Of a stretch of 52,497 nt of DNA, positions 2 through 30,249 are shown piece by piece. The number at the start of each line of letters is the position of its first letter. Positions within the stretch are counted from its first letter, which is position 1. Position numbers and translations under genes: made by a program. The notes under the pieces are model-generated. The model was not told the DNA's origin and made no database searches. It saw only the letters and a list, made by a program, of their open reading frames with translations. The DNA comes from Thermoplasmata archaeon (lineage in GTDB: Archaea; Thermoplasmatota; Thermoplasmata; Lutacidiplasmatales; UBA184): NCBI GenBank assembly GCA_022750155.1, contig JAKIWG010000016.1, positions 1 through 52,497 on the forward strand, in the 5' to 3' direction.

Positions 2-628
2 GGCACCCTCCCCCCTCCCGTTGTCTCCGTACTCTCCGACTTTCGCCTGCTCGTCAACCGTTCCGTCCGCGATGCGTTGGACCGGGGGCTCACCGCCCGC
101 GGCTCGCTCACCAAGTTCAGCCAACAACTGGCCCGCGAGTATCGCCTGCTCGGCTCGGGGGCTGCCATGGTGCTGGAGGACCTCCACCTGCCCCAAGGGA
201 GAGGACGGAGTCGCCGCACCCGTCGTCGACTCTCCTCCTGGCCCCAAAGGGAGCTCCACCGCCAACTGGAGTACAAGGCGGAGGAGCGCGGGGTGCCGGT
301 GCTGATAGTGAACCCTGCCTATACGTCGAAGACCTGCCCGGTGTGTGGCGAGATCAAGGATCGCCGAAGTAGGGTGGGCCGGGTGTTCGTCTGCGACCGC
401 TGTCGGTGGCGATGCGACCGACAGCGGAACGCGGGGCTGAACATTTGCCGAACCGTCCTTGCCGAGCTCCCGGAAGGGGCGATGAAGCAGGGACTTGGGG
501 GTCTATGGCTTGACCCCAACGCCCTGACCGATGATGCGATGATTCTCCGCTACCCCCCGGGTAACGCCGGGGCGCACGAGAGGAGCGGAGGGTCAGGGAG
601 AGTCGAGACGGGTCCTCGCAACAAATGA
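2..628 (+). CDS. tnpB: TnpB-like protein (IS200/IS605 OrfB), 3' part
   Basis: The frame is open to the left window edge, so the N-terminus lies outside; a TTG at 77 is an internal codon rather than a convincing start. The visible part has the C-terminal half of the TnpB RuvC-like nuclease: a VLEDLHLP segment supplying the second acidic residue, a QLEYKAEERGVPV segment, the zinc ribbon (NPAYTSKTCPVCG ... CDRC) and the third RuvC motif CDRQRNAGLNI with its Asp. TnpB proteins are RNA-guided nucleases encoded by IS200/IS605-type elements. No TnpA is visible. The gene ends with a long tail (about 70 residues after the NAGLNI motif). Whether the element is intact cannot be judged from this window. 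Confidence 0.85.
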   Translation, partial: GTLPPPVVSVLSDFRLLVNRSVRDALDRGLTARGSLTKFSQQLAREYRLLGSGAAMVLEDLHLPQGRGRSRRTRRRLSSWPQRELHRQLEYKAEERGVPVLIVNPAYTSKTCPVCGEIKDRRSRVGRVFVCDRCRWRCDRQRNAGLNICRTVLAELPEGAMKQGLGGLWLDPNALTDDAMILRYPPGNAGAHERSGGSGRVETGPRNK

Positions 629-1018
629 CCAGTTTCGATTCAAAGCCCCACCGCGACCGGGTGGATCGCGACTTTTCGCCCATCGGTGGAGGTCCTGGAC
701 CGCGCGTTTCGTGGCCTCCGCCGAGTCCGAGGGTGAGCGAGCCGGTGCAGCGGTATCTCGCGACTCGAACTCCCCGTTGTCGGTCCCTCTCTCTGGGCTC
801 GTCGCCACGGGTCATATCCGTCGAACTTCCGGCCGCGGGATCTACGAATATTCGACGGAGCGGGATCAACGGCCGCGCGCTCAACGGAGTGGACCGACAA
901 TGGCAGAATCCACGTGGACCCGCCGGTCGTACGCTCCAGAGGGTGTATCCCCGTCGTATCTCCCGGCGAGGTATTTCTAGGCCGGCCCGTTCCTGAATCT
1001 GCCAGGAGCTGCCGAAAC
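629..1018. other. Intergenic stretch without a supported gene
   Basis: About 390 bases between the TnpB-like gene and the solute-binding protein gene. Open frames on both strands cross it but show compositional, arginine-rich translations with no recognisable domain. It should contain the right end of the TnpB element and the promoter of the downstream gene; an AT-richer spot lies near 841-856 (TCTACGAATATTCGAC). The downstream gene has its own Shine-Dalgarno (AGGAGCT) at about 1005-1011. Confidence 0.5.
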
Positions 1019-4000
1019 ATGTCGAAAGAGCCCATATCATACACCAGCGACGATCCCCACACCCGTTCGCGCTCGATCGCCTCGGTGGCTTCGGGCGCCG
1101 TCATCACCCTGCTCCTACTGTCCGCCCTTCCCGGCGGCCTCGGCGCGCCGGGCGTGACGGCCCATGCTTCGAGCCCCTCTCTGGCCAATCTCCGTCCCTC
1201 CGTCGCTTCCAATCCGTGCCTCGTGAGCCCCGCGTCCACCCAAAGGCACGACCTCGTGGTCACCTCCTCGGAACTCCAGACCCTGGTGGGGACTCGCGCG
1301 GCGTTCCACGCTCTGTTCACGAACGGAACGATCGGCTCCTCGTATGACTGGGCGTTCGGCGACGGCAGCTCCGCGAGAACGCTCGGGCCGAGCGCCTTCC
1401 ACGCGTTCACTAACCCCGGACTGTTCGCGGTCTGCGTCCGTTCGACGGACGCCTGGGGGACGGTCCACGACAGCCGATCCTCGATCCTCCTGTTCCCCGT
1501 CCTGGACGAGGGCGGGAACGACGCGCACGGGACGCACGCGATCCTGACGGGCGCGGTGGTTTCCAACGGCACCTCCGGGGTCCAACCTACGGCCCTCATC
1601 CAGGCCGGCGGCTCGGTCACCGTGTCCGTACTGGTCTCCGTTTCCCCGACGAACCCCGCCGCCACTTCGCTCGGCTCCACGTTCCTGCTGAGCGCGAACG
1701 CGGGCACCCACGGGACGCTGTCGAAGGTTTCGGTGAACCCCACGGGGACGAGCCGCGCGAAGGTTTCGTTCAACCCGTCCACGCCGGCCGGGCTCTATGA
1801 GCTCACCTATTCGCTCTCCACGACCACTCCGATCAACGGCTCCAACGTGCTCTCCTGGAGCAACTTCACGTTCACGATCGCCGTGGGAGCCTCCCTCGGA
1901 GGCCACGCAGTGCCGACTCCCGCCACCGGCCACGCCGGGGTCCTGAATGTCTTCGAGACCGCCCCCGGTGGCGCCTCCACGCTCGACCCCGCGATCAGCT
2001 ACGAGACGGTCGGGGGCGAGGTCATCTCCAACGTATACCAGAACCTCGTCGATTGGAACCAATCGGGACCCAACCCGCAGGTCAATCCGATCCTCCCGGA
2101 CCTCGGAACGTGTGTGCCGGGCAGCTTCGAGTGCTCCAGCCTGTACGGCTCGTCCCTGGTGACCAACACCTCGGTCACGTTCGTGATCAACAACCAGTCC
2201 CGCTTCTACGACGGAGCGACGGGAAAGTCGTGGGGGGTCTGGCCCACGGACGTGCTGTTCTCCGTCGTGCGGACGATGGGCTTCGCCACCTATCCCTGTT
2301 GGGGTTGCAACAACGGGTGGATGATCAGCCAGGCGCTCCTGCCCTCGGGCAACGGCGCATGGGACGGTGGCCTCCACGCCCCCGGGAACAACACCCCCCA
2401 GCACGAGTACGCCGCGGTGGCCCTCAATCAGAGCACCACGTGCCCTGCCATCGCGCTGGTCTCTCAGCACGGCTGCGTCACCTTCGACTTCCCGTCCTCC
2501 TCGGTGTCGCCCGGCTCCCCCCGGTTCTTCCTCGATGTGCTCGCGGGTCCATGGGGCGGCGCCGTCGTCCCCTGCGGATGGTTCAGTGCCTCCGCCCAAG
2601 GGGCCGGGATCCCCTATTGGACGGCCGGGAACGTGAGCGGGACCGGCGACCATCCGTGCGCCGCTCCGGGCCAGCCCGGATATGGGGTCGTCCCCTCGAG
2701 CGTGCCGGTCACCGGCTGGGACTCCTGGGAGATCGCCGGGTCGCTGCCCCCCTGGGTCGGCACGGTATCGGGCTCCATGGCCGGAAGCGGTCCCTACACC
2801 CTCGCCGCGTACACCCCCGGGAGCTCTTACACACTCCAGGCGAACCCCGGCTGGCGCGCGAACCCCAATTGCCACGTCGCTGGATGCATGCCCGCCTCGG
2901 GGCCCGCGGCCCGGACCGTGTTCGTCGACTGGGCGACAGGATTCGGAGCCGGACAGTCCGCGATCTCCTCCGGCGCCGCCGACGTGGCGAGCTACTCGGT
3001 GACTAACGCCACGAGCGTGGTCCGACAACTGGAGGCCGGAGTGCTGTCGGTACGGGTCGTGCCCTCTCGCACCACCTACTTCGACCCCCTGAACCTGAAC
3101 TACAACGTGTCGGTGGCGAACACGATCGCCGGTCGAGCGCTCACGGCTCCGGCGACGGTCCTGACCGACCTCAACCTCCGCCAGTTCCTGATCCACTCCT
3201 ACCCGTACGATCGGTCGATGAGCTCCTCCTACGACGCGGGGGGGCTCGCGTATCGATTCGAGCAGGGAGGGGCCATCCCGAGCTTCTTCGGGGCGAGCAC
3301 GCCGACGAACATCTCGTGGCCTTCCGGAGGTGCCGACACGAATCCCGCCGATGCGGGGGGCGCGGCGTGGTGGTGGAACCTCACCTCGCACGACGGGGCG
3401 GCGGGTGGACACTGCACGCCCTCGCATCCATGCTCGTTCTTGATGACGTTCGTGAACGGGACGACGGCCGACGAGAAGGCCCAGAAGATCTGGGTCGCGA
3501 GCATCATCGCGATCTCCGGCGGCGCGATCCGACCGGTGCTGAAGGGCTTGACCTTCCTCCAGACGGTCATCAACTCGCTCTACACTCCGCCGGGGAGCAA
3601 CCCGCAAACCGTCTCCTCCGGGCTCGGATGGGTGGTCGACTATCCGGACCCGACCGATTTCGTCACCCCGCTCTACCTTCCGGACACCAGCTACACGTTC
3701 AGCGACGCGATTGCGGAGGAGCTCTCTCTGTTCAATTCGAGCAGCTGCCCGGTGGCCGTGACCCACTACTCGTCGCTGTCGACGCCCATCCCCATGGGCT
3801 GCCAGGGGACCGCGTATGCCGCCATGGTTGGGGCGTTGAGGGCGGCCGCCCTCGGGCCGCTCACCCCGGCCCGACTCCTCCTCTACGACGAAGCGGAGCA
3901 GGTGGCCCTACGGCTCGGTCTGTACGTCTCGACCGGTCAGGGCATGAACGTGCTGACCTTCGCCCCGTGGATCGACTCGTCGAGCGTGCCCTCCGGGGTG

Positions 4001-4375
4001 CTGACCGGGGAGAACATGATCGATTGGGGCCTGCTCCGCTACACGCCGCATCCGGCGCTCCTCGCCATCGAGGCCCCCGCGGCGAGCCCCGTCCCAGTAC
4101 CCCTCGGCCGGTCGGTGACGCTGGTCGCGATCGCCTCGGGCGGAACGGGCGGATACCGGTACCTGTGGTCGGGATTGCCCCCCGGGTGTACCTCGGTGAA
4201 CGCCTCCTCGACGACCTGCACGCCGACCTCGCGCGGGGTCTACAACGTGTCGGTCGCCGTGACGGACGCCTCGGGAACCAGCGTGACGAGCGCCGCCCTC
4301 AGCCTGCGGGTTGCGTCTCCCGTCGCCGTCATCGGAGTCCGCCGACCCGTGCGGCCGCTCAGCCGAAACGCCTGA
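1019..4375 (+). CDS. Large secreted family-5 solute-binding protein with PKD domains
   Basis: About 1118 residues. The ATG at 1019 was chosen because AGGAGCT lies 7 bases upstream and a hydrophobic export segment (about residues 21-45) follows directly. An N-terminal PKD domain (WAFGDGSS, about 85-165) precedes a linker and a full SBP_bac_5 domain (about 305-1015), recognisable from LDPAISYETVGGEVISNVYQ, DVLFSVVR and a late VVDYPDPTDFVTPLYLPDT segment. This family binds peptides or nickel for ABC importers. A C-terminal Ig/PKD-like repeat carries LWSGLPPGCTSVNASSTTC. No C-terminal membrane anchor and no permease or ATPase genes are adjacent, so it is an orphan receptor held, if at all, by its N-terminal segment. 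It is roughly twice the usual family length. Binding specificity is unknown. Confidence 0.88.
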   Translation: MSKEPISYTSDDPHTRSRSIASVASGAVITLLLLSALPGGLGAPGVTAHASSPSLANLRPSVASNPCLVSPASTQRHDLVVTSSELQTLVGTRAAFHALFTNGTIGSSYDWAFGDGSSARTLGPSAFHAFTNPGLFAVCVRSTDAWGTVHDSRSSILLFPVLDEGGNDAHGTHAILTGAVVSNGTSGVQPTALIQAGGSVTVSVLVSVSPTNPAATSLGSTFLLSANAGTHGTLSKVSVNPTGTSRAKVSFNPSTPAGLYELTYSLSTTTPINGSNVLSWSNFTFTIAVGASLGGHAVPTPATGHAGVLNVFETAPGGASTLDPAISYETVGGEVISNVYQNLVDWNQSGPNPQVNPILPDLGTCVPGSFECSSLYGSSLVTNTSVTFVINNQSRFYDGATGKSWGVWPTDVLFSVVRTMGFATYPCWGCNNGWMISQALLPSGNGAWDGGLHAPGNNTPQHEYAAVALNQSTTCPAIALVSQHGCVTFDFPSSSVSPGSPRFFLDVLAGPWGGAVVPCGWFSASAQGAGIPYWTAGNVSGTGDHPCAAPGQPGYGVVPSSVPVTGWDSWEIAGSLPPWVGTVSGSMAGSGPYTLAAYTPGSSYTLQANPGWRANPNCHVAGCMPASGPAARTVFVDWATGFGAGQSAISSGAADVASYSVTNATSVVRQLEAGVLSVRVVPSRTTYFDPLNLNYNVSVANTIAGRALTAPATVLTDLNLRQFLIHSYPYDRSMSSSYDAGGLAYRFEQGGAIPSFFGASTPTNISWPSGGADTNPADAGGAAWWWNLTSHDGAAGGHCTPSHPCSFLMTFVNGTTADEKAQKIWVASIIAISGGAIRPVLKGLTFLQTVINSLYTPPGSNPQTVSSGLGWVVDYPDPTDFVTPLYLPDTSYTFSDAIAEELSLFNSSSCPVAVTHYSSLSTPIPMGCQGTAYAAMVGALRAAALGPLTPARLLLYDEAEQVALRLGLYVSTGQGMNVLTFAPWIDSSSVPSGVLTGENMIDWGLLRYTPHPALLAIEAPAASPVPVPLGRSVTLVAIASGGTGGYRYLWSGLPPGCTSVNASSTTCTPTSRGVYNVSVAVTDASGTSVTSAALSLRVASPVAVIGVRRPVRPLSRNA

Positions 4376-8799: not shown

Positions 8800-10230
8800 C
8801 TACGGCTTGGGGGGTGTGGGTCCTCCGGAGCCGGTGTTCGTCCCATAGGGGGTCGGCGGGGAGGGCGCGGTGGCACCACTGGGAGGGAGCGCGGAGTCCG
8901 GTGACTGGCGATAGCTCGGGGCGAGCCCCCGTGCGGCGCGGCCCTTGGACCACTCACGCCAACCGACGGTTCCAACTCCGGCCACGATCAGGCCGATCAA
9001 CAGCCCGATAAGGAGGACGGGGGGCACCACGGTGCCCGCCGTGCTCGGAGCCCCGTTCGAACCGCACCCGCTCACAAGGCAGGTCGACTGCGCCTGAGCC
9101 TGGGGCACGGCCTCGGGTTGGGCCTGTACGGAGCTCGGAGCGGGAGCGGTCAGCGGCCGCGCGGCCGCCGTCACACCGTTCATCGGGGCCAGGGTCGCGT
9201 CGGACCTCGAATAGGCCGAGGCTCCCGCGACGATCTCGACGTGATGGTGGATCGCATCGACGGCGAGGTCCACGCGCGAGGTGGCGAAAGAGGTGGCGCC
9301 GAGAGCGTGGGGGTCCCAGCCGTGACCGGCCGTCCCGAACAGGTCGAAGGCGTGGGGGACCAGGATGATCCCCTCCTCGTCATCGAACGGTCCCGTGAGG
9401 GAGAGCACGATCACCGGTACGGTCTGTCCGTTGGCGAGTGGCACGGTCCCTAGATCGGTCCCATGGAGATCGATCATGCCGGACCCATTGACGGAGCCCG
9501 ACGGGCCCCCGGAGGCGGTCACGGCGGACCCGGCGAACGACGTTCGGCTGGCGGCCCATCCGAAGGCCCATGCTCCGGACGCGGTGAATGCGGAACTCGA
9601 GTTCCAGCTGATGTTCGGCCCGACGTTCCACGGGACGACGCCCAGGGCGGGAGCGAACTGGACCGAAGCGTGAGCGCTTCCGCGGGCGGCGACAAAGGCC
9701 GAGGCCACCGCGGTCGAAGCGCCGTGGTGGACGGTCACCGAGAAGCTCTGGTTGACCGCGCCTTGGCTCGCGGCGGAGGCGTTGTCGATCCCGAAGGCGG
9801 GCGTCGCGGTGCCGTTCTCGTACACCGTGGCAGCCGTCGTGAAGTTCCCGAACCCGGTGTCCTGCTCGTAGGCCCGGTAGCTGAGATTCCCCAGGATCAT
9901 CGGCGCCGAGCAGTTCGGCGAGCAGAACGTGCCGAAGAGGGACGCGCCGACGGTGCGCTGCGCCTCCAGGGCCACGGTGGAGCTCGATGTGTTGGTCGCG
10001 GTCAAGATCACGTGCCAGCCAAAGAACGCGTGGAGCGAGTACGACCCGTTCGGCAAGATCACGCTGAGGTTGGCCCAGCGCTCGGCCCCGTATGCCCACT
10101 GCTGGGTCGCCCCGGACTGCGGGGCGACGGCCGCATTCGCTGCAGGCGCCGCCAGGGGGAGGGCCAGCGTCGCCAGCAGCAGGGCGCCGAGCACGAGGAG
10201 TGAGCCGAACGTTCGTTCGTGGGAGTTCAT
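8800..10230 (-). CDS. Membrane-anchored Asn/Ser/Thr-rich surface protein
   Basis: 476 residues. It has a signal peptide (MNSHERTFGSLLVLGALLLATLA), a long extracytoplasmic part rich in N-x-S/T sequons, one membrane segment near the C-terminus (VPPVLLIGLLIGLIVAGVG) and a short Pro/Ser/Gly-rich inner tail. No known domain is recognised. The plan matches the protein encoded at 36556-38037 (signal, WAYGAE or WAWGAA near the start, glycosylation-type sequons, C-terminal anchor), so the two may be distant paralogues. A TATA element lies at 10287-10293 and AGGA precedes the ATG. Its function is unknown; a cell-envelope or adhesion role is inferred from topology only. Confidence 0.8.
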   Translation of the reverse strand: MNSHERTFGSLLVLGALLLATLALPLAAPAANAAVAPQSGATQQWAYGAERWANLSVILPNGSYSLHAFFGWHVILTATNTSSSTVALEAQRTVGASLFGTFCSPNCSAPMILGNLSYRAYEQDTGFGNFTTAATVYENGTATPAFGIDNASAASQGAVNQSFSVTVHHGASTAVASAFVAARGSAHASVQFAPALGVVPWNVGPNISWNSSSAFTASGAWAFGWAASRTSFAGSAVTASGGPSGSVNGSGMIDLHGTDLGTVPLANGQTVPVIVLSLTGPFDDEEGIILVPHAFDLFGTAGHGWDPHALGATSFATSRVDLAVDAIHHHVEIVAGASAYSRSDATLAPMNGVTAAARPLTAPAPSSVQAQPEAVPQAQAQSTCLVSGCGSNGAPSTAGTVVPPVLLIGLLIGLIVAGVGTVGWREWSKGRAARGLAPSYRQSPDSALPPSGATAPSPPTPYGTNTGSGGPTPPKP

Positions 10231-10286
10231 GGTTTGGTTCCTGGACGGAGCGGACCCCGTCAGAGGGATGGAGCCGAGAAGTGGGG

Positions 10287-10293
10287 TATAAAC
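10287..10293 (-). promoter_or_regulatory. TATA box of the surface-protein gene
   Basis: Read on the minus strand the site is GTTTATACC, about 60 bases before the ATG at 10230, which predicts a 5' leader of about 30 bases with AGGA near its end. Directly upstream on the same strand is a CGGGCG/CGCCCG hairpin (10293-10316) that could end the preceding regulator transcript. Confidence 0.55.
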
Positions 10294-10364
10294 GGGCGTT
10301 CCGACCGGTTCGCCCGCTTTGGGACCGTGTGCTACGGTGTCTCTAGGGGTTCGAGCCCGAGGGT

Positions 10365-11687
10365 TCAGGAGGCGGGGCCCCGACCGGGGGGGACCCGGAG
10401 GTTCTCGCGTTGCCGTCGCAGTTCGAGCGCCAGGGACTCCCCCATCGACGTGAGCCGGTAGACCCTGAGCCGTCGCGGGCGCCCACGGACGTGTCGGACA
10501 TCCTGCGAAAGCACCCCCGCGATGACGAGCCGTCGCAGCACGTTGGAGAGCGGGCTCTGCCCGACCTCCAGCCTGTCGGACATCCCGGCCTGCGTGAAGG
10601 TCGGAGGAGCGATCTCGTCGTCGTGGAGCGTGCCGAGCGAGTACAGATGCAGCACGACGCGTTGCGAAAGCCGCAGCCGCTCGACCTGCTCCGGTGGGGC
10701 GGGGGCCGGCAACACCGGGGCGATCGGCGGTAGGGCGGGCTCGATTTCGGGCCTCGGCCGAGGGATCGTGAGCGGCACCGGTCCGAGCGAGGGTCCCGAT
10801 GGGGGAGCTGCCGCGAGCTCGGGTCGGACGAATTGGGAGGTGACGATCGGACGCGGGCCTTCCGGCGGCCGGTCGATCAGGACCGCCTGCGGCGGAGCGG
10901 AGGTCGCTCCGGTGATCCGGCCGTGTCGCCCGGCACGGTCACCGTAGAATGACCGCGTGTACAGCACGATCCCGACCACTACCAGCCCCGCCGCCAGGAC
11001 TCCTCCTGTCAACCAGGGGATCACGCCACCCAATGGGCTGGTCGGACTCGCCGAGGCGGGGCCGCTCACATTCACCATCAGAGTGGTGCTCGAGCTTGCG
11101 TTGGCAGAATCCGTCACCTGAAATGTCGCAAGGTAGGAGCCGGGGGCGGCGTACGTGTAGGAGAGATTGAACCCGCTGCCGACCTGTCCGTTCCCGAACG
11201 TCCAGGTCGCGCTGCGGAACGTGCCCGACCCGCCGATCACCGTCGCCGAGAAGTCGACGGTCAGCGGGGCGACCCCTGATTTCGGGACGACCGTGGCGAG
11301 GGTCCGCAAGGCCCCGCTCGAAACGGCGAGCGTCTGGGCGCATTGGCCCGTCTGGGAGCCCTGCGTCACGGAAACGATCGTGGTGTAGGACCCAGGGTGG
11401 TCGAACCGGTGAATGGGGGCGAAATACGCCGTGCCCGTCCCGTTGAAGTACGACCCATCCCCGAACGACCAGTCGATCGCCGAAGGGGCCACGCCGAGCG
11501 CAGTGAGCTCGTAGGCCACGACGAGGGGCGCGTTCCCCGCCGTCGGGTGTAGGCTCAAGGTGAGGCCGGCACTGCATCCCTGGGCGGTGGGGGGCGGCGT
11601 GCCGCCGACGATCGGGGCCGTGCACAGCAGTCCGAGCGACAGGAGTCCGCCGAGGACGAACACCCCGCGAAGCGTTCGAACCCTCAT
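10365..11687 (-). CDS. Transmembrane one-component regulator: two PKD domains, TM helix, cytoplasmic winged helix
   Basis: 440 residues from the ATG at 11687, which overlaps the TGA of the upstream kelch gene (ATGA). Order of parts: signal or anchor (6-28), two PKD domains outside (WSFGDGSYFNG at 73; WTFGNGQVGSG at 162), a membrane helix (about 222-243), a Pro-rich cytoplasmic linker, then a winged-helix domain (about 336-430) with LSQRVVLHLYSLG, TQAGMSDRLEVGQSPLSNVL as recognition helix and RPRRLRVYRLT as wing. The topology is that of a membrane-bound transcription factor that senses something outside the cell. It is encoded as the second gene of a coupled pair with a kelch-PKD surface protein. 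Ligand and target promoters are unknown. The topology is read from sequence; the sensing role is inferred. Confidence 0.82.
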   Translation of the reverse strand: MRVRTLRGVFVLGGLLSLGLLCTAPIVGGTPPPTAQGCSAGLTLSLHPTAGNAPLVVAYELTALGVAPSAIDWSFGDGSYFNGTGTAYFAPIHRFDHPGSYTTIVSVTQGSQTGQCAQTLAVSSGALRTLATVVPKSGVAPLTVDFSATVIGGSGTFRSATWTFGNGQVGSGFNLSYTYAAPGSYLATFQVTDSANASSSTTLMVNVSGPASASPTSPLGGVIPWLTGGVLAAGLVVVGIVLYTRSFYGDRAGRHGRITGATSAPPQAVLIDRPPEGPRPIVTSQFVRPELAAAPPSGPSLGPVPLTIPRPRPEIEPALPPIAPVLPAPAPPEQVERLRLSQRVVLHLYSLGTLHDDEIAPPTFTQAGMSDRLEVGQSPLSNVLRRLVIAGVLSQDVRHVRGRPRRLRVYRLTSMGESLALELRRQRENLRVPPGRGPAS

Positions 11688-13579
11688 CGCTCCCATTCCG
11701 GCGCTCCCCCGCGGCCGTCCCACATCCCACGCACGAGCTCGTCCGACTCCGCCGCGAGACGTCGGATACGGAACCGTTCGACCGCGAAGGCCGTAGCGCC
11801 CGCGGCGACCGCAATCGCCCCCAGGGCGTAGACGAGGGCGGTCGACGAGAGGCCGAGCAGGACGGGAGGTACCGGGCCGCCGACGACCTGGACCGTGGGA
11901 AGGGTGCGATTGACCGGCTGACCCGCCGCGTCCTCGACCCTCAGGATGGGAACGAACGTCCCGCTGGACGAGTACGTGTGCGTGATGCTGACCCCGGCCT
12001 CCGAGGAGCCGTGGCTCCCGTCGCCGAAGTTCCATTCGATCGTATAGGGCGCCCGGCCGCCGGAGACGCCGGCCTGGAACGTGACGACCAGCGGGGAGGT
12101 CCCTTGCAGCGGGGAAAAGGTGTAGGTCGCCTGGAGGGGAACCACGGCGAGGGCTACGACGGTCGCAGTCGCCGCCCGGCTCCCGCCCTGGCTGTCAACG
12201 ACGACGGAGGAGACGGTGTAGGTCCCTGCGATGCTGAACAACATCGTGGAGGAGTAGGTGGCTCCGTCCCACGCCAGGGCCTGCTCGCACCGCCCGGTGC
12301 CAGGACAGACGCTGAGGTTGTACGGACCCGACCCGCCGGAGGCGTTCGTCGTGATCGTGACCTCGAACGGAACTTCCCCGATCGAGCGGGAGATGGAAAG
12401 TGCGACGGCGAGATTTGACGGGTTACCGGAGCTGCCTGAGGACGCGCTCGCCGTTCGACCGCAGAGCGTCCAGGTCTGTCCTGCCTGCGCCGAGCGCACT
12501 CCCCGGGAATCCAGACCCCCGAACAGCACCAGGCAGCCGTTCGAGCCACTCGTGTTTTCCGATAGGCCGGCCGACCATCGGGGCGAGGGTGCGGAGGGGA
12601 GGGGGCTGACCGAACTCGCCCACGAACCGGCCGAGTAGGTCCAACTGTCGTTCAGGGCTCCCACGCTGGCCGGCGATTCTCCGCCGAACAGGTACACGAC
12701 CCCGAGGCCCACGTCGTAGGCGATCGATTCCCCGAGTCGGGCCGATGGGGCGAGGGCGGTGGTCCGGTTCACCCAGCTCTGGCCGTCAAACGACCAGGAT
12801 TGGCTGGGCGCGAGGCCGGAGGGACTGAGGACCGCGAGTAGGTAGCCGTCCGCGACGTCGTAGGCCACCGAGGGGCAGCACGCGGCGGGGGGCGACTCGC
12901 CGGAGACCGTGACCGCCGACCAGCCCCCGCCGGCGAACGAGTACAGGTCGGATCGGGGCCCGGAGGCATCGACTCCGCCGAACAGGATCACCGAGGAGGT
13001 CGTCGGGTCGTACGAGGCCCCGGCCGCATCGCGGGGGCTCGGCGGGTGGAACCCGGTCTGCGAGAGCATCGTCCAGGTTCCGGACGAGAACATCCAGGTG
13101 TCGCCGAGGTAGCCGGAGGCACCGAGCCCCCCGAACAGGAGGACCCCAGCCGAAGAGGGGTCGTACACCATCGCGGCCCCCTCACGTCGCGGTGGGGGCG
13201 AAATGAGCAGGGAGGCCGTGAGGTTCTGCCAGTGACCCGCGACCAGGCGCCAGGTTTCTCCGACCGGCTGGCCCATGGGACCGGAAGCGGTCCCTCCGAA
13301 CAGGAGGACGTAGCCGTCGTGCGCGTCGTACACCATCCCCGCCGGGGCGAGTATCGGTGGGGGGGTCCCGGCCGCGGCGGTCTGGTTCGTCCAGTTGCCA
13401 GCCCACGCCGTGCTGGGGTCGGCACTCCGGAGAGTCACGGGGTGGAACGACGATACGGGACGCGCGACGGTCGAGTGGAAGGACGCGGAAGCTCGGCCCG
13501 AGGGGGCGGGAAGGATGAATGCGCCGCTGACCACCAGCAGCACGACCAGAACGACCAGCGCCGATGACCCCCCACGCAT
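11684..13579 (-). CDS. Membrane-anchored kelch-repeat and PKD surface protein
   Basis: About 631 residues from ATG 13579 (MRGGSSALVVLVVLLVV, an export signal). GTG codons at 13618 or 13666 are alternative starts giving a longer cytoplasmic N-region as in its paralogue at 28330-30249; a TTCATAAG element lies about 27 bases before 13666. About six kelch-type repeats follow (for example MVYDAHDGYVLLFGG, MVYDPSSAGVLLFGG, SYDPTTSSVILFGG), forming a beta propeller, then a linker beta region and a PKD domain (WNFGDGSHGSS), a C-terminal membrane helix and a short charged inner tail. The stop overlaps the start of the winged-helix regulator gene. Binding of carbohydrate or protein outside the cell is inferred from the fold class. 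Confidence 0.8.
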   Translation of the reverse strand: MRGGSSALVVLVVLLVVSGAFILPAPSGRASASFHSTVARPVSSFHPVTLRSADPSTAWAGNWTNQTAAAGTPPPILAPAGMVYDAHDGYVLLFGGTASGPMGQPVGETWRLVAGHWQNLTASLLISPPPRREGAAMVYDPSSAGVLLFGGLGASGYLGDTWMFSSGTWTMLSQTGFHPPSPRDAAGASYDPTTSSVILFGGVDASGPRSDLYSFAGGGWSAVTVSGESPPAACCPSVAYDVADGYLLAVLSPSGLAPSQSWSFDGQSWVNRTTALAPSARLGESIAYDVGLGVVYLFGGESPASVGALNDSWTYSAGSWASSVSPLPSAPSPRWSAGLSENTSGSNGCLVLFGGLDSRGVRSAQAGQTWTLCGRTASASSGSSGNPSNLAVALSISRSIGEVPFEVTITTNASGGSGPYNLSVCPGTGRCEQALAWDGATYSSTMLFSIAGTYTVSSVVVDSQGGSRAATATVVALAVVPLQATYTFSPLQGTSPLVVTFQAGVSGGRAPYTIEWNFGDGSHGSSEAGVSITHTYSSSGTFVPILRVEDAAGQPVNRTLPTVQVVGGPVPPVLLGLSSTALVYALGAIAVAAGATAFAVERFRIRRLAAESDELVRGMWDGRGGAPEWER

Positions 13580-13766
13580 TCGGGCGAGCAGGCGGTCGAA
13601 TCGGGCCGTGATCCGCACGTCCGCCCTCGAAGCGGTCTGGCGATTCGCCCGGCTCGTGGCTAGCACTGTCGCTTCTATCGGAATTTCCCTTATGAACTTG
13701 GTCTGGAGATACACGGTTGATAGAGGGTTTTCTCCCGAGCGGGTCGCTAACGGCCGAGGTGGCCCT

Positions 13767-15434
13767 CTAGAACTCGGGCCACCGGAATCGACCTTTTCGG
13801 GCGATCGCCTGGGATTCGGGATATCCGGCGTCGGCATGGCGCACGACCCCGATCCCCGGGTCGTTGTGAAGGACCCTCGCCATCCTCCGCTCCGCGTCCG
13901 CACTCCCATCGGCCACAATGACGAGGCCCGCGTGGATGGAGTTTCCGATTCCCGTTCCTCCCCCGTGGTGCACAGAGACCCACGACGCCCCGCCCGCCAC
14001 GCTCAGCAATGCGTTCAGGATCGGCCAGTCGGCGATGGCGTCCGAACCGTCCTTCATCCGCTCCGTCTCCCGGTAGGGGCTCGCCACGCTTCCCGTGTCG
14101 TGGTGGTCCCTCCCGATCGCCACCGGCGCCGTCAGCCGCCCATCGCGGACCATCTCGTTGACCAGGCGGCCGAACTTCTCGCGATCCCCGTACCCCATGT
14201 AGCAGATGCGCGCGGGGAGGCCCTGGAACTGGACCCTTTCGCGGGCCATCCGGATCCAACGGGCGAGGTGGTGGTCCTCTGAGAACTCCGTGAGCACCAT
14301 CTCGTCGATTCGGAAGATATCCTTCGGGTCGCCGGATAGGGCCACCCAACGGAACGGTCCGCTGCCGACGGCGAACAGCGAGCGGATGTACTTGGGAACA
14401 TACCCCGGGATCTCGAACGCGCGCTCCACACCGGCATCCCGCGCCTGGGTCCTGAAATTGTTTCCATAATCGAACGCGCGCGCCCCCCGCGCCTGGAGGG
14501 TTAGGATGGCCCGCGCCTCGGTGGCGATAGAGCTGCGGACCCGGGCCAGATAGCCCACCGGGTCGTAGGCCCGGAGCGTCGAGGCGGTCTCGACGGTAAG
14601 ACCCATGGGAATGTAGCCGACGTTGATGTCGTGAGCCGCGGTCTGGTCGGAGACGATGTCGGGAGTGACCTCCCGTTCGACCAGTTCCGGGTAGACCTGC
14701 GCTGCGTTCGCGCACAGACCGACGGAGCGTGCCACCCGTTCGGTGGCCGCCCGCCGAACCCGTGTCAGGGCCTCCTCGAGCGACGGGGCCACCTCGTCGA
14801 GATAGCCCATCCTAAGGCGCCGGTCGATCGCCTCCGGGTCGACGTCCACGAAGAGCCCGGCGCCCCCGAGCATCGTCACGGCCAGCGGCTGGGCACCGCC
14901 CATCTCCCCCAGACCGCTCGTCAACATCCATCGCCCGACGAGGTCCGGTTGGTTGAACTCCGCCCGGGCCAGCGCGCCCAAGGTCTCAAAGGTGCCCTGA
15001 AGGATCCCCTGCGTGCCGATGTAGATCCAACTTCCCGCCGTCATCTGCCCGTACATCGTCAGGCCTCGGGCCTCCAGGTCCCAGAACTGCTCGTCGGTCG
15101 CCCACCGAGGCACGACCATCGCATTCACGATCAGGACGCGCGGGGCATCGGAGTGGGTGGGGAACACACCGACGGGTTTTCCGGACTGGACGAGGAGGGT
15201 CTCGTCGTTCCCGAGTTCGGGGAGCAGGGAGACCAGTCGGTCGTACGACTCCCAATTCCGCGCCGCCTTGCCCCGGCCCCCGTACACGATGAGGCCCGCC
15301 GGATCGCGGGCGACCTCGGGGTCGAGATTGTTCATGAGCAGCCGATACGCACCCTCCTGGCTCCACCCTTTGCAGTGGAGATTCGCACCGCGGGGCGCGC
15401 GGATCACTCGGCTGGGGTCACGCAGGGTCGCCAC
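13767..15434 (-). CDS. hutU: Urocanate hydratase (urocanase)
   Basis: 555 residues from GTG 15434, the normal length of the family; GGAGGAGGG lies 10 bases upstream and the family N-terminus ([11 protein letters not shown]) starts at once. The frame extends upstream to an ATG at 15506 but without support. Family hallmarks are [47 protein letters not shown], the NAD+-binding [11 protein letters not shown] region and the cysteine in [12 protein letters not shown]. The enzyme uses tightly bound NAD+ to add water to urocanate in histidine breakdown. No hutH, hutI or hutG gene is in the window. It is divergent from tRNA-Thr. Confidence 0.93.
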
Positions 15435-15671
15435 ATCGGCCCGACCCTCCTCCCGCTTACAATGCTTTGCCGCGACCTGAAGGTGGACCGATAACCTCGA
15501 CCCCATTGTCGCTCACCCCGCCGGCCTGAACGCGGAGCCCGGTGGGACGACCTTGGGGAAGCAGGGACGACCTCTTCTCCGCCCGGACCCACGGGAGTTC
15601 GTGCCCGAGGCCGAGCCGTCGCTCCGACCACTGAGGGGGCCCTGCCGGAGAGTGCCCGAGGAAGCACCTAG

Positions 15672-28329: not shown

Positions 28330-30249
28330 TCAACGCGATCGGAGCGTGTCGTCCGGGGTCTCCGACCACTCGGGCGGGATGTAGCAGAACGGCCGAGGGG
28401 CCGGGGGCGGGGGGAGCCGGCGGGCCGCCTTCCACATCATCAGCGCGCCGAGGGTGCTGAGGATGAGTCCGGCACCGATCGGGGGCACCAGCACCCAGCC
28501 GATCGGCATCACCGCGGGCGCGGCCGCGGACGTCGTGGGCAGCGTGGCGCTTCCCGCCGGCTGGGGGGCCGGGACGGTGAGCCCGACGGAGGCGACCTCG
28601 GTGGCGTTCCGGGCGTCCGTCACCGTCACGGTGACGCGGTAGTCGCCCGCCAACCTCGGGGCGCAGGTCAAGCTCGAGGTGGAGCTCGACGGGCAGTTCA
28701 CCGGGAGGCCGCTCCAGACGAGCAGGTAGGGGGCCCTCCCGCCGGTGACCTGCGCCGTGAAGGTCGCGGTCGAGCCGGGCTGAACGGTACCCGGAGTCAC
28801 TCCGAGGGCGAGCGCGAGGGGGAGGTCGGCCACCCGTACGATCCCCTGGTCGAGGGCGTAGACCCCGCGGCTGTCGGTGACATTGAGAGTGGCCCGGTAG
28901 GCGCCCGGGGAGGCGTACGAGTAGACGAGCCTCGGGCTGGTGCTGACCGAGTTGCCGACACCGGTCGCGAGGGCGTACCGGTAGGGCGGAAGTCCGCCCA
29001 CGACGAACGCGGTGAGCTGGACGGCCTGTCCTGGCACGACGACCGTGCCCGACAGGAGGAGCGACGCCTGCAGGGGAAGGACGAACGCCCAGGTCGCGGC
29101 GACGGGGCTGCCAGTGCTCTGGGTTCCCAAGGCGATGATGTACCCGTCGGCCGCGTCGTAGGCGACGGTGGCGGAGGAACGTCCTGGGACGGCGTGGACC
29201 CCAAGCGCGGAGAGGTTCGTCCACTGGCTCGAGGCGTATGTCCAGCTGTCGCGCATCGCCGCCGTGCCATGGCCGCCGAACAGGAGGAGGCCGTTGTTCA
29301 ACGGGTCGTAGACGACCCCCGCGCTGTCCCGCGCGGCGGGACCCGAGGCGGTCGAGCTGGTCCGGTTCGTCCAGGTCTGGTGCGCGTAGCTCCACGTGTC
29401 GCCGCACGGGTGCCCGCACGCCCCGTTGCCTCCGAACAGGAGGTCAAAGCCGTCGCTGGCGTCGTAGACGAACGCCTCGGCCGATCGGGCCGGCGGGAAC
29501 TGGGCGGTGGGGTCGGTCACGTTGCTCCACCGCCCTGAGGCGAACATCCAGAGGTCCGAGAGCGCCTGCCCGTTCTGGAGCGCCCCCCCGAGCAGGAGAA
29601 TCCCTCCGACGGTCGGGTCGTACGTGCTTCGGGCGTCCGTCCGGGGCGAGGGCGAGCCGCCCGTGGGACTCAGCATCGCCCAGTAAGTGCCTCGGAACTG
29701 CCAGGTCTCGGCGCTGACGCCGGTCGACGTGCGGCCCCCAAAGAGGACCAGTGCCTTCTCGGAGGGGTCGTAGCTCAGCGTGGCCCCCGACCTGGGCGAG
29801 GGGGCCGTGGCCAGCGAGCTCGTCAGGTTGGTCCAGTTGCCGTGGGTGAACGACCAGGTCTCGGAGGAGGGGCACGTGAGGCTCGAGCATCCCCCGAAGA
29901 GGATGACCGAGGAGGTCTGCGGGTCGTACGCCATGGCGGCTCCCGTCCCCGGGGCCGGGGCGGAGAGGGCCTGGGCCCCGAGCTTCAGCCACGCACCGGG
30001 TTTGGCGGGCGGGGCACCCGCCGGGGTCGAGGAGAGCTGGAGCCCGGCCTCCGCGTGGGACGGCGCGGAGACCGGACGGGGCGAGGCTCCGGCATGGAAC
30101 AGTGGGATCAGCAAGGCTCCGACCGCCACTAGCGCGACGAGCGCCGGGACGCCGTACCGCGCTGCGCGGACGCGGGCCGCCTGGGGGAGGGCAAACGGGG
30201 CCTGGGCTCGGGCCGGACCGTCGGTGTGGCCGGATGTTAGAATACGCAT
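28330..30249 (-). CDS. Membrane-anchored kelch-repeat and PKD surface protein
   Basis: 639 residues, same plan as the kelch protein at 11684-13579. A cytoplasmic N-region (about 30 residues) and a membrane segment (about 33-52) are followed by about six kelch repeats (AMAYDPQTSSVILFGG, SYDPSEKALVLFGG, VYDPLNNGLLLFGG), two PKD/Ig-like domains, one with LVWSGLPVNCPSSSTSSLTC, a C-terminal membrane helix and a Pro-rich inner tail. Unlike the first copy, no regulator gene follows. The TATA box CTTTTTAA (30280-30273) lies 24-31 bases before the ATG and a palindrome covers the start codon. It is divergent from tryptophanase. Ligand unknown. Confidence 0.82.
   Translation of the reverse strand: MRILTSGHTDGPARAQAPFALPQAARVRAARYGVPALVALVAVGALLIPLFHAGASPRPVSAPSHAEAGLQLSSTPAGAPPAKPGAWLKLGAQALSAPAPGTGAAMAYDPQTSSVILFGGCSSLTCPSSETWSFTHGNWTNLTSSLATAPSPRSGATLSYDPSEKALVLFGGRTSTGVSAETWQFRGTYWAMLSPTGGSPSPRTDARSTYDPTVGGILLLGGALQNGQALSDLWMFASGRWSNVTDPTAQFPPARSAEAFVYDASDGFDLLFGGNGACGHPCGDTWSYAHQTWTNRTSSTASGPAARDSAGVVYDPLNNGLLLFGGHGTAAMRDSWTYASSQWTNLSALGVHAVPGRSSATVAYDAADGYIIALGTQSTGSPVAATWAFVLPLQASLLLSGTVVVPGQAVQLTAFVVGGLPPYRYALATGVGNSVSTSPRLVYSYASPGAYRATLNVTDSRGVYALDQGIVRVADLPLALALGVTPGTVQPGSTATFTAQVTGGRAPYLLVWSGLPVNCPSSSTSSLTCAPRLAGDYRVTVTVTDARNATEVASVGLTVPAPQPAGSATLPTTSAAAPAVMPIGWVLVPPIGAGLILSTLGALMMWKAARRLPPPPAPRPFCYIPPEWSETPDDTLRSR

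Follow-up and report, generated by a model that had tools for sequence, protein, structure and literature searches.

How does an archaeal cell pass information from its surface to its genes? Such links are poorly known in archaea, and a pair of overlapping genes from a Thermoplasmata archaeon raises the question directly. The pair lies in the window analysed here – the whole 52,497-nucleotide (nt) stretch of contig C11 (JAKIWG010000016.1), with 69.2% GC, from a 2.13-Mb genome in 51 contigs – and comprises gene A, encoding a kelch-PKD surface protein, and gene B, encoding a protein with PKD domains, a predicted membrane helix and a predicted winged helix-turn-helix (wHTH) domain. Our analysis makes it probable that A and B form a two-protein module leading from the cell surface to DNA without a kinase (kinases were not searched for), and that this module has been multiplied and diversified within one family of Thermoplasmata. 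The pair recurs many times in related archaea, in some of them as a single fused protein, and this points to a direct line between surface and gene regulation.

Both genes are on the minus strand and overlap as ATGA at 11684-11687. A preliminary description of the stretch, made from the letters alone, had noted this overlap and had read A as a kelch propeller with PKD and a membrane anchor, and B as two PKD domains, one membrane helix and a winged helix with a recognition helix; these readings stand. The product of gene A runs from a hydrophobic N-terminal signal stretch (amino acids (aa) 7-25) through the kelch propeller and a PKD domain to a transmembrane (TM) segment and a 31-aa tail predicted to be cytoplasmic. 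The kelch matches lie above the curated Pfam cut-offs (PF24681 at 1.1e-21, PF13418 and PF13415), and the propeller is a domain type in keeping with the ligand binding that the preliminary description had supposed. Translation of A may begin at GTG 13666 instead of ATG 13579: the GTG stands 26 nt past a TATA-like element and would add 29 aa. Gene B encodes, in order, a signal stretch, two PKD domains (matched twice above the curated Pfam cut-off, 3.3e-18), a TM helix, a proline-rich linker and a C-terminal PadR/MarR-like winged helix. In both proteins the signal stretches and TM helices were called from hydropathy alone. A full-length model of B is weak (mean predicted local distance difference test score, pLDDT, 49.3) and was used for helix positions alone; its helices 3-22 and 225-248 fit the hydropathy topology. 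Since a signal stretch, the PKD domains and a single TM helix all precede the wHTH, its position on the cytoplasmic side is the most likely topology and, as far as prediction goes, nothing places the domain outside or removes the membrane helix.

No Pfam or NCBIfam model reaches its cut-off at the C-terminus of B (the best Pfam match, HxlR, scores 12.2 bits versus 20.8). The 103-residue C-terminal region, modelled as a domain alone from a two-row alignment with one relative, gave a winged helix with a mean pLDDT of 91.2 and a predicted TM-score (pTM) of 0.82; the other four of the five wHTH models have mean pLDDT values of 58 to 82. The model comprises helices 3-22, 37-44 and 48-60, wing strands 64-71 and 77-83 and a C-terminal helix 85-101, with TQAGMSDRLEVGQSPLSNVL predicted to span helix 2 and the beginning of recognition helix 3. 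Foldseek placed the PadR structures 5h20 and Rv3488 (5zi8) on top (E 3e-4 to 6e-4, TM-score 0.58-0.65), and a profile of 23 wHTH members searched against the PDB matched Rv3488, a PadR regulator, at 3.4e-5. At E<=0.01 the Pfam PadR family (PF03551) is matched by 20 of the 23 members (best 3.6e-6) and MarR_2 by 12; Trans_reg_C, the OmpR type of ToxR-like regulators, is absent from the 23 Pfam families that the members match at this threshold. Curated PadR cut-offs are not reached, either by the B protein P0001 (TIGR03433, 16.7 bits versus 101.8) or by one fusion protein (23.1 versus 27). Judged from profiles and models, the winged helix of B is nearest to PadR/MarR regulators, and its family carries a conserved basic wing, RHVxGxPRRxKVYRLT.

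Evidence that A and B belong together comes firstly from their arrangement. The wHTH occurs five times in the genome, once in the window and in four further copies at 41-57% identity, and all five B genes lie downstream of a surface open reading frame (ORF) with a C-terminal TM segment and a short tail; a sixth, weak match (E 6e-8) is an AAA/TPR protein. A first set of 53 B loci was made up of 40 neighbourhoods picked from the listed matches, eight more and the five own copies. In 49 of them an ORF with TM segment and tail stands directly upstream, at gaps of -13 to 153 nt as counted from the chosen start codons. The remaining four are L048, at a contig edge; L073, whose contig stops 261 nt downstream; L095, with a surface ORF downstream of B instead; and L091, from the Thermoplasmata archaeon isolate REEB18, in which the order is reversed (B then A) and the tail of A is kept. 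Because the script had been refined on this set, a second one was assembled. It took in 21 of the 29 B matches outside the genus, on 20 regions, and 20 of the 21 in four more genomes of the genus, also on 20 regions. Eight matches were left out (G149, G160 and G343, seen earlier, and five weak matches in long ORFs), and one of the 41 B (REEB18, L132) was already in the first set. An ORF with a C-terminal TM segment and tail precedes B in 32 of the 41; among the others are two contig edges (L138, L147), the reversed REEB18 locus (L132) and three long single chains (L150, L157, L165). With uniform gene calling in the second set, such a neighbour was found for 28 of 38 B and for 5 of 147 other genes (Fisher 7e-20). 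The adjacency that the preliminary description had proposed to look for in relatives is thus conserved.

The B domain is present at E<=1e-18 in 53 of 103 genomes of the family and in five of its seven genera, at one to eight copies each. Across a sample of the phylum, 153 of 292 genomes match the wHTH at E<=1e-6, the best match outside the family being 3.0e-19 among the matches listed; at 13 loci inspected outside the family the wHTH lies near the N-terminus, with a hydropathy-called segment in one (L078). Confinement of the wHTH to the A-B pair is ruled out by weaker N-terminal matches in soluble AAA/TPR and other proteins throughout the phylum. Given the position of the wHTH at the loci inspected outside the family, the module itself looks like a family-level trait with expansion. 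As a separate observation, each of eight scanned genomes has one weak wHTH match in an ORF of 811-842 aa; the own-genome example (L098, 1747-4179 on the minus strand of G000:C1) is an 811-aa protein with AAA and TPR domains and a related wHTH.

Coupling of A to B is supported, beyond adjacency, by a common tail motif and by natural fusions. The tails of A align around R-x-x-R-E-G-x-x-[LIW]-V-x-x-[LM], a motif that reaches beyond charge to the EG, LV and L/M positions. The same eight genomes contain 31 strong B (E<=1.6e-22), and a 41-position profile of TM segment and tail, with at most 150 first-look candidates scored per genome, found 21 matches at E<=1.3e-4. By their coordinates all 21 adjoin one of the 31 strong B – 14 are rows of the profile, seven are not – and the next-best matches begin at E 0.001. 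The window's own tail is matched at G000:C11:11717-11839 (E 6.4e-11), its sequence being a row of the profile. In L042 and L045 the tail of A is wholly without the motif. Against shuffled sequences, four of eight tails were amphipathic at p<=0.05, with 0.054 for that of the window; an amphipathic nature is only suggestive.

Gene B itself takes several forms: long (PKD-TM-wHTH, as in the window), short (TM-wHTH) and without a predicted TM helix, the last accounting for 9 of 41 B in the second set by a crude hydropathy scan. At L146 and L169 the HTH starts at residues 14 and 26 of the ORF, which leaves no room for an ordinary anchor, and the B proteins of L093 and L094 are 144 and 124 aa long without a TM helix; upstream of each of these four stands an A whose tail carries the motif or resembles it. 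In L165 and L157 kelch, PKD, TM and wHTH occur in one ORF; for L157, the profile of GC at third codon positions makes it probable that the ORF is non-coding towards its N-terminus. The ectodomains of A vary while the inner part is kept: of 20 A proteins, sampled from 23 listed, 12 have kelch (10 of these above cut-off) and 17 have PKD at E<=1e-4. Taken together, the tail matches beside B, the TM-less B and the kelch-wHTH fusions suggest that A and B act as one unit. Two long ORFs from other genera, L074 394-5121 (+) of 1576 aa and L150 1928-7120 (+) of 1731 aa, end by eye in what appear to be two tandem winged helices behind a TM segment.

If B reaches DNA, where might it act? A motif finder run on 32 module upstreams returned TATCTCCGGCgGgGGTTTAT, a box that stops about 6 nt before a TATA-like element; in the form TATCTYCG-n7-TTTAT it is present at roughly half of the promoters of modules and at few other promoters. 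The input was 35 of the 53 first-set modules (18 omitted as close relatives, contig-cut or without A) less three dropped at contig edges (L017, L054, L060). At scores of at least 15 bits the element is found in 18 of 32 modules of this training set, versus 2 of 67 other secreted genes, 1 of 140 other genes and 0.3% of shuffles. Four-fold cross-validation, with the motif found de novo and the controls taking the best of four matrices in full score, gave 12 of 32 modules versus 3 of 67 and 1 of 140 at the same threshold (rank test against secreted genes, p 0.015; box columns alone, 2.7e-5). The old matrix applied to the second-set loci, excluding six with A at a contig edge (L133, L136, L137, L139, L145, L168), scored at least 15 bits in 14 of 26 modules versus 3 of 29 secreted and 1 of 91 other genes (rank test against secreted genes, 0.0026; Fisher at 12 bits, 6e-4). 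Some of the control exceptions belong to modules: those in L031 and L152 are first genes of three-gene modules, and another is the ORF taken as A in L134. A third surface-protein gene stands first in line at L031, L043/L100 and L152, with a promoter element of 13.9 to 23 bits and a different basic tail.

A strict form of the pattern has 30 matches in 22 genomes. For nine of them a secreted ORF begins at a start codon 26-28 nt further on; one more such match, in G018, lies inside a longer ORF. Seven of the nine were inspected for B and are modules, and none of the nine is in the twelve genomes without B at E<=1e-18. In the window's own genome TATCTCCN8TWYWT occurs exactly twice, both times in the window: upstream of A and upstream of the gene at 1019-4375 (+). 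Matches with one mismatch number 13 more, and a reversed control pattern gave four. The preliminary description had suggested nearby surface-protein genes as targets, and this holds, as a candidate, for the one gene at 1019-4375, which encodes a PKD protein with sub-threshold similarity to SBP_bac_5 (solute-binding) and is a possible further member of the regulon. An inverted repeat, CTATC...GATAG, surrounds the TATA in L018 and L029, one orthologous pair.

From these parts we infer the following scheme. A, oriented in the membrane as predicted, would be the receptor half, with a kelch/PKD ectodomain that binds an extracellular ligand and a short tail inside the cell that docks on B. B would be a DNA-binding protein of PadR/MarR-like type, tethered to the membrane through its own helix or, in some relatives, probably through the tail of A alone. 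Engagement of A might then alter the dimer state, position or stability of B; this step from outside to inside is suggested by the architecture, the tail and the fusions. B would in turn act on the promoter of its own A-B operon, reading the box just upstream of the TATA; a small number of other surface-protein genes may also be under its control. Activation by B is slightly favoured over repression, because the position of the box resembles that of the -43 to -84 fragment bound by ArnR/ArnR1 (PMC6396743). A more far-reaching version is a tentative possibility that we rate somewhat lower than the module as such: a distinct archaeal class of split receptors, in which kelch/PKD proteins with varied ectodomains share a cytoplasmic tail motif that docks a PadR-like factor, be it fused, anchored or soluble. 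Each module would act on its own promoter by way of the TATCTYCG box, and the whole family would have a kinase-less 'receptor-to-operator' repertoire of sensors, expanded by repeated duplication.

Other explanations deserve weight. B might be a local regulator of its own surface-protein operon that senses the membrane or envelope through its TM helix and PKD domains and sets the level of A, with A an adhesin or enzyme that sends no signal to B. The gene overlap, the promoter element at the operon itself and the occurrence of only two exact pattern matches in the genome all fit this account, and it is the most serious competitor; we nonetheless consider it unlikely, given that the strong tail matches all lie beside B and that TM-less B and kelch-wHTH fusions exist. 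Much less probable is that the winged helix makes protein contacts or tethers membrane to nucleoid within an A-B surface complex and regulates no gene. The C-terminus of P0001 falls below every Pfam and NCBIfam cut-off and wHTH folds are known in roles other than DNA binding, whereas the basic conserved wing, the PadR/MarR proteins as nearest solved folds, the related domain in a soluble, regulator-like AAA/TPR protein and the promoter element common to the modules all speak for DNA. Least probable of all is duplication of a neutral gene pair, the tail being kept as a stop-transfer or anchor sequence: the copies are clearly related, some A tails lack the motif and the positive-inside rule predicts basic residues after a TM helix, yet the motif exceeds charge, the link survives a change of order (L091) and occurs as fusions, and the ectodomains differ.

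Several results weigh against the module as we read it. With regard to the tail, 10 of the 31 strong B have no tail match at E<=1.3e-4; a tailed ORF without B occurs on a 3.2-kb contig (L097, G039:C95, E 0.0013); and, given the number of candidates scored per genome, further tails may exist among those left unscored. For the second set, 18 of the 32 A tails match the profile at E<=0.01, the motif is not seen by eye in L134, L139, L140, L159 and L160, and in L141, L149 and L161 B stands away from contig edges without an upstream A. As for the promoter, about half of the modules have no recognisable box; the contrast in cross-validation is weaker at 10 bits or more (18 of 32 versus 11 of 67 and 13 of 140); the nine box columns alone do not separate second-set modules significantly from secreted genes (p 0.078); and the strict matches are only moderately more frequent in genomes with B (19 in ten) than in those without B at E<=1e-18 (11 in twelve). 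The box could be read by a factor other than B, and wHTH domains can also serve protein contacts.

The combination has both precedents and differences among known systems. Transmembrane transcription regulators (TTRs) carry a DNA-binding domain and a TM segment in one protein, are mostly single-pass and occur in bacteria and archaea (PMC10269533). B resembles them in that a DNA-binding domain (pLDDT 91.2) and a TM helix are predicted in one chain, with no kinase; it differs in its PadR/MarR-like wHTH, which is C-terminal behind PKD ectodomains, and the words PadR, Thermoplasm- and PKD are absent from the main text of that paper. The 'one-component' route of the preliminary description is apt for B alone and for the fused forms. 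The split form, with a membrane partner encoded beside the regulator (49/53 and 32/41 loci), is by analogy better read as a co-component system: a receptor and a membrane regulator, ToxR/ToxS-like but of other parts. In the co-component TTR systems ToxR/ToxS, TcpP/TcpH and VtrA/VtrC, a membrane regulator is accompanied by a protein that influences how active or how stable it is (PMC10269533). In the present module, by contrast, the partner is a large kelch/PKD surface protein with a tail motif, and no-TM and fused variants exist, the parts having been compared by Pfam matches alone.

Within archaea, ArnR and ArnR1 of Sulfolobus acidocaldarius are membrane-bound HTH activators on surface-structure promoters, and a flaB fragment with both of their boxes spans -43 to -84 (PMC6396743). 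The likeness lies in being archaeal membrane-bound HTH regulators tied to surface-structure promoters. ArnR/ArnR1 have an N-terminal HTH, a HAMP-like and a sensing domain and two C-terminal TM segments (PMC6396743), an architecture that B does not have: its wHTH is C-terminal and it has one TM helix after the signal stretch. The ArnR/ArnR1 boxes, inverted repeats of TCGAC-N5-GTCGA, are unlike the module element (PMC6396743). The PadR family (Rv3488, 5zi8; 5h20) gives the nearest fold and profile match to the wHTH; B is unlike it in scoring below the PadR cut-offs and in being tied to surface proteins. No publication describing the A-B pair was found among the matches listed, as judged by titles and abstract openings. 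Membrane-anchored regulators with co-component partners are known already (PMC10269533); what seems new is an archaeal variant with kelch/PKD receptors, a C-terminal PadR-like domain, a tail motif, variants that lack a TM helix or are fused into one chain, and a promoter element linked to the module. The module reaches eight copies in a genome and offers natural fusions as well as candidates for a docking motif and an operator. It is therefore open to tests in vitro, for which small parts suffice: a TM-less B of 124-144 residues, a tail peptide of 15-20 residues and a 20-bp promoter element.

Table 1. Features of the A-B module and of the second exact pattern match (window coordinates).
Feature	Position	Strand	Basis or remark
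Gene B, 440 aa	10365..11687	minus	start codon lies within the ATGA overlap
Signal peptide of B, aa 1-29 (predicted)	11601..11687	minus	hydropathy (stretch 6-24)
Two PKD domains of B, aa 42-122 and 130-207	11067..11564	minus	Pfam PF18911, two stretches; limits by eye
TM helix of B, aa 222-247 (predicted)	10947..11024	minus	hydropathy (222-240); helix 225-248 in low-confidence model
Winged helix of B, most likely cytoplasmic, aa 338-429	10401..10676	minus	AlphaFold, Foldseek, profile against PDB
Recognition helix of B, aa ~377-391 (predicted)	10515-10559	minus	predicted structure
Gene A, 631 aa from ATG 13579	11684..13579, possibly to 13666	minus	translation, Pfam, hydropathy
Kelch beta-propeller region of A, aa ~80-375	12455..13342	minus	Pfam; limits approximate
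PKD domain of A, aa ~488-560	11900..12118	minus	PF18911 1.8e-11 at 494-558; PF00801 at 488-554
TM stretch of A, aa 571-600 (peak 573-591)	11780..11869	minus	hydropathy
Tail of A, predicted cytoplasmic, motif RIRRLAAESDELVRGM	11687..11779	minus	hydropathy; TM+tail profile
Promoter element TATCTCCAGACCAAGTTCAT, box and TATA-like, upstream of A	13692..13711	minus	de novo motif, genome pattern scans
Second exact pattern match	957..976	plus	upstream of 1019-4375 (+)

The surroundings of the module add some minor observations. A second kelch-PKD surface protein is encoded at 28330-30249 (-); the motif of the module is absent from its tail and it adjoins none of the genome's five B, so that the preliminary description was right to set it apart as lacking such a partner. 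It can serve as a negative control. The preliminary description's interpretation as a whole is partly supported. A defence system was considered and rejected (no PADLOC match at E<=0.01), as was a known structured RNA (no Rfam match at the gathering threshold in 10000-14000). A urocanase gene at 13770-15506 (-) lies directly upstream of the module, and because urocanase also adjoins the modules of L030 and L100 (Pfam), the window's module may occupy a conserved place. Finally, the start of the contig, at 2-625 (+), encodes the C-terminal part of a TnpB/Cas12f-like protein (Pfam Cas12f1-like_TNB, 1.9e-21).

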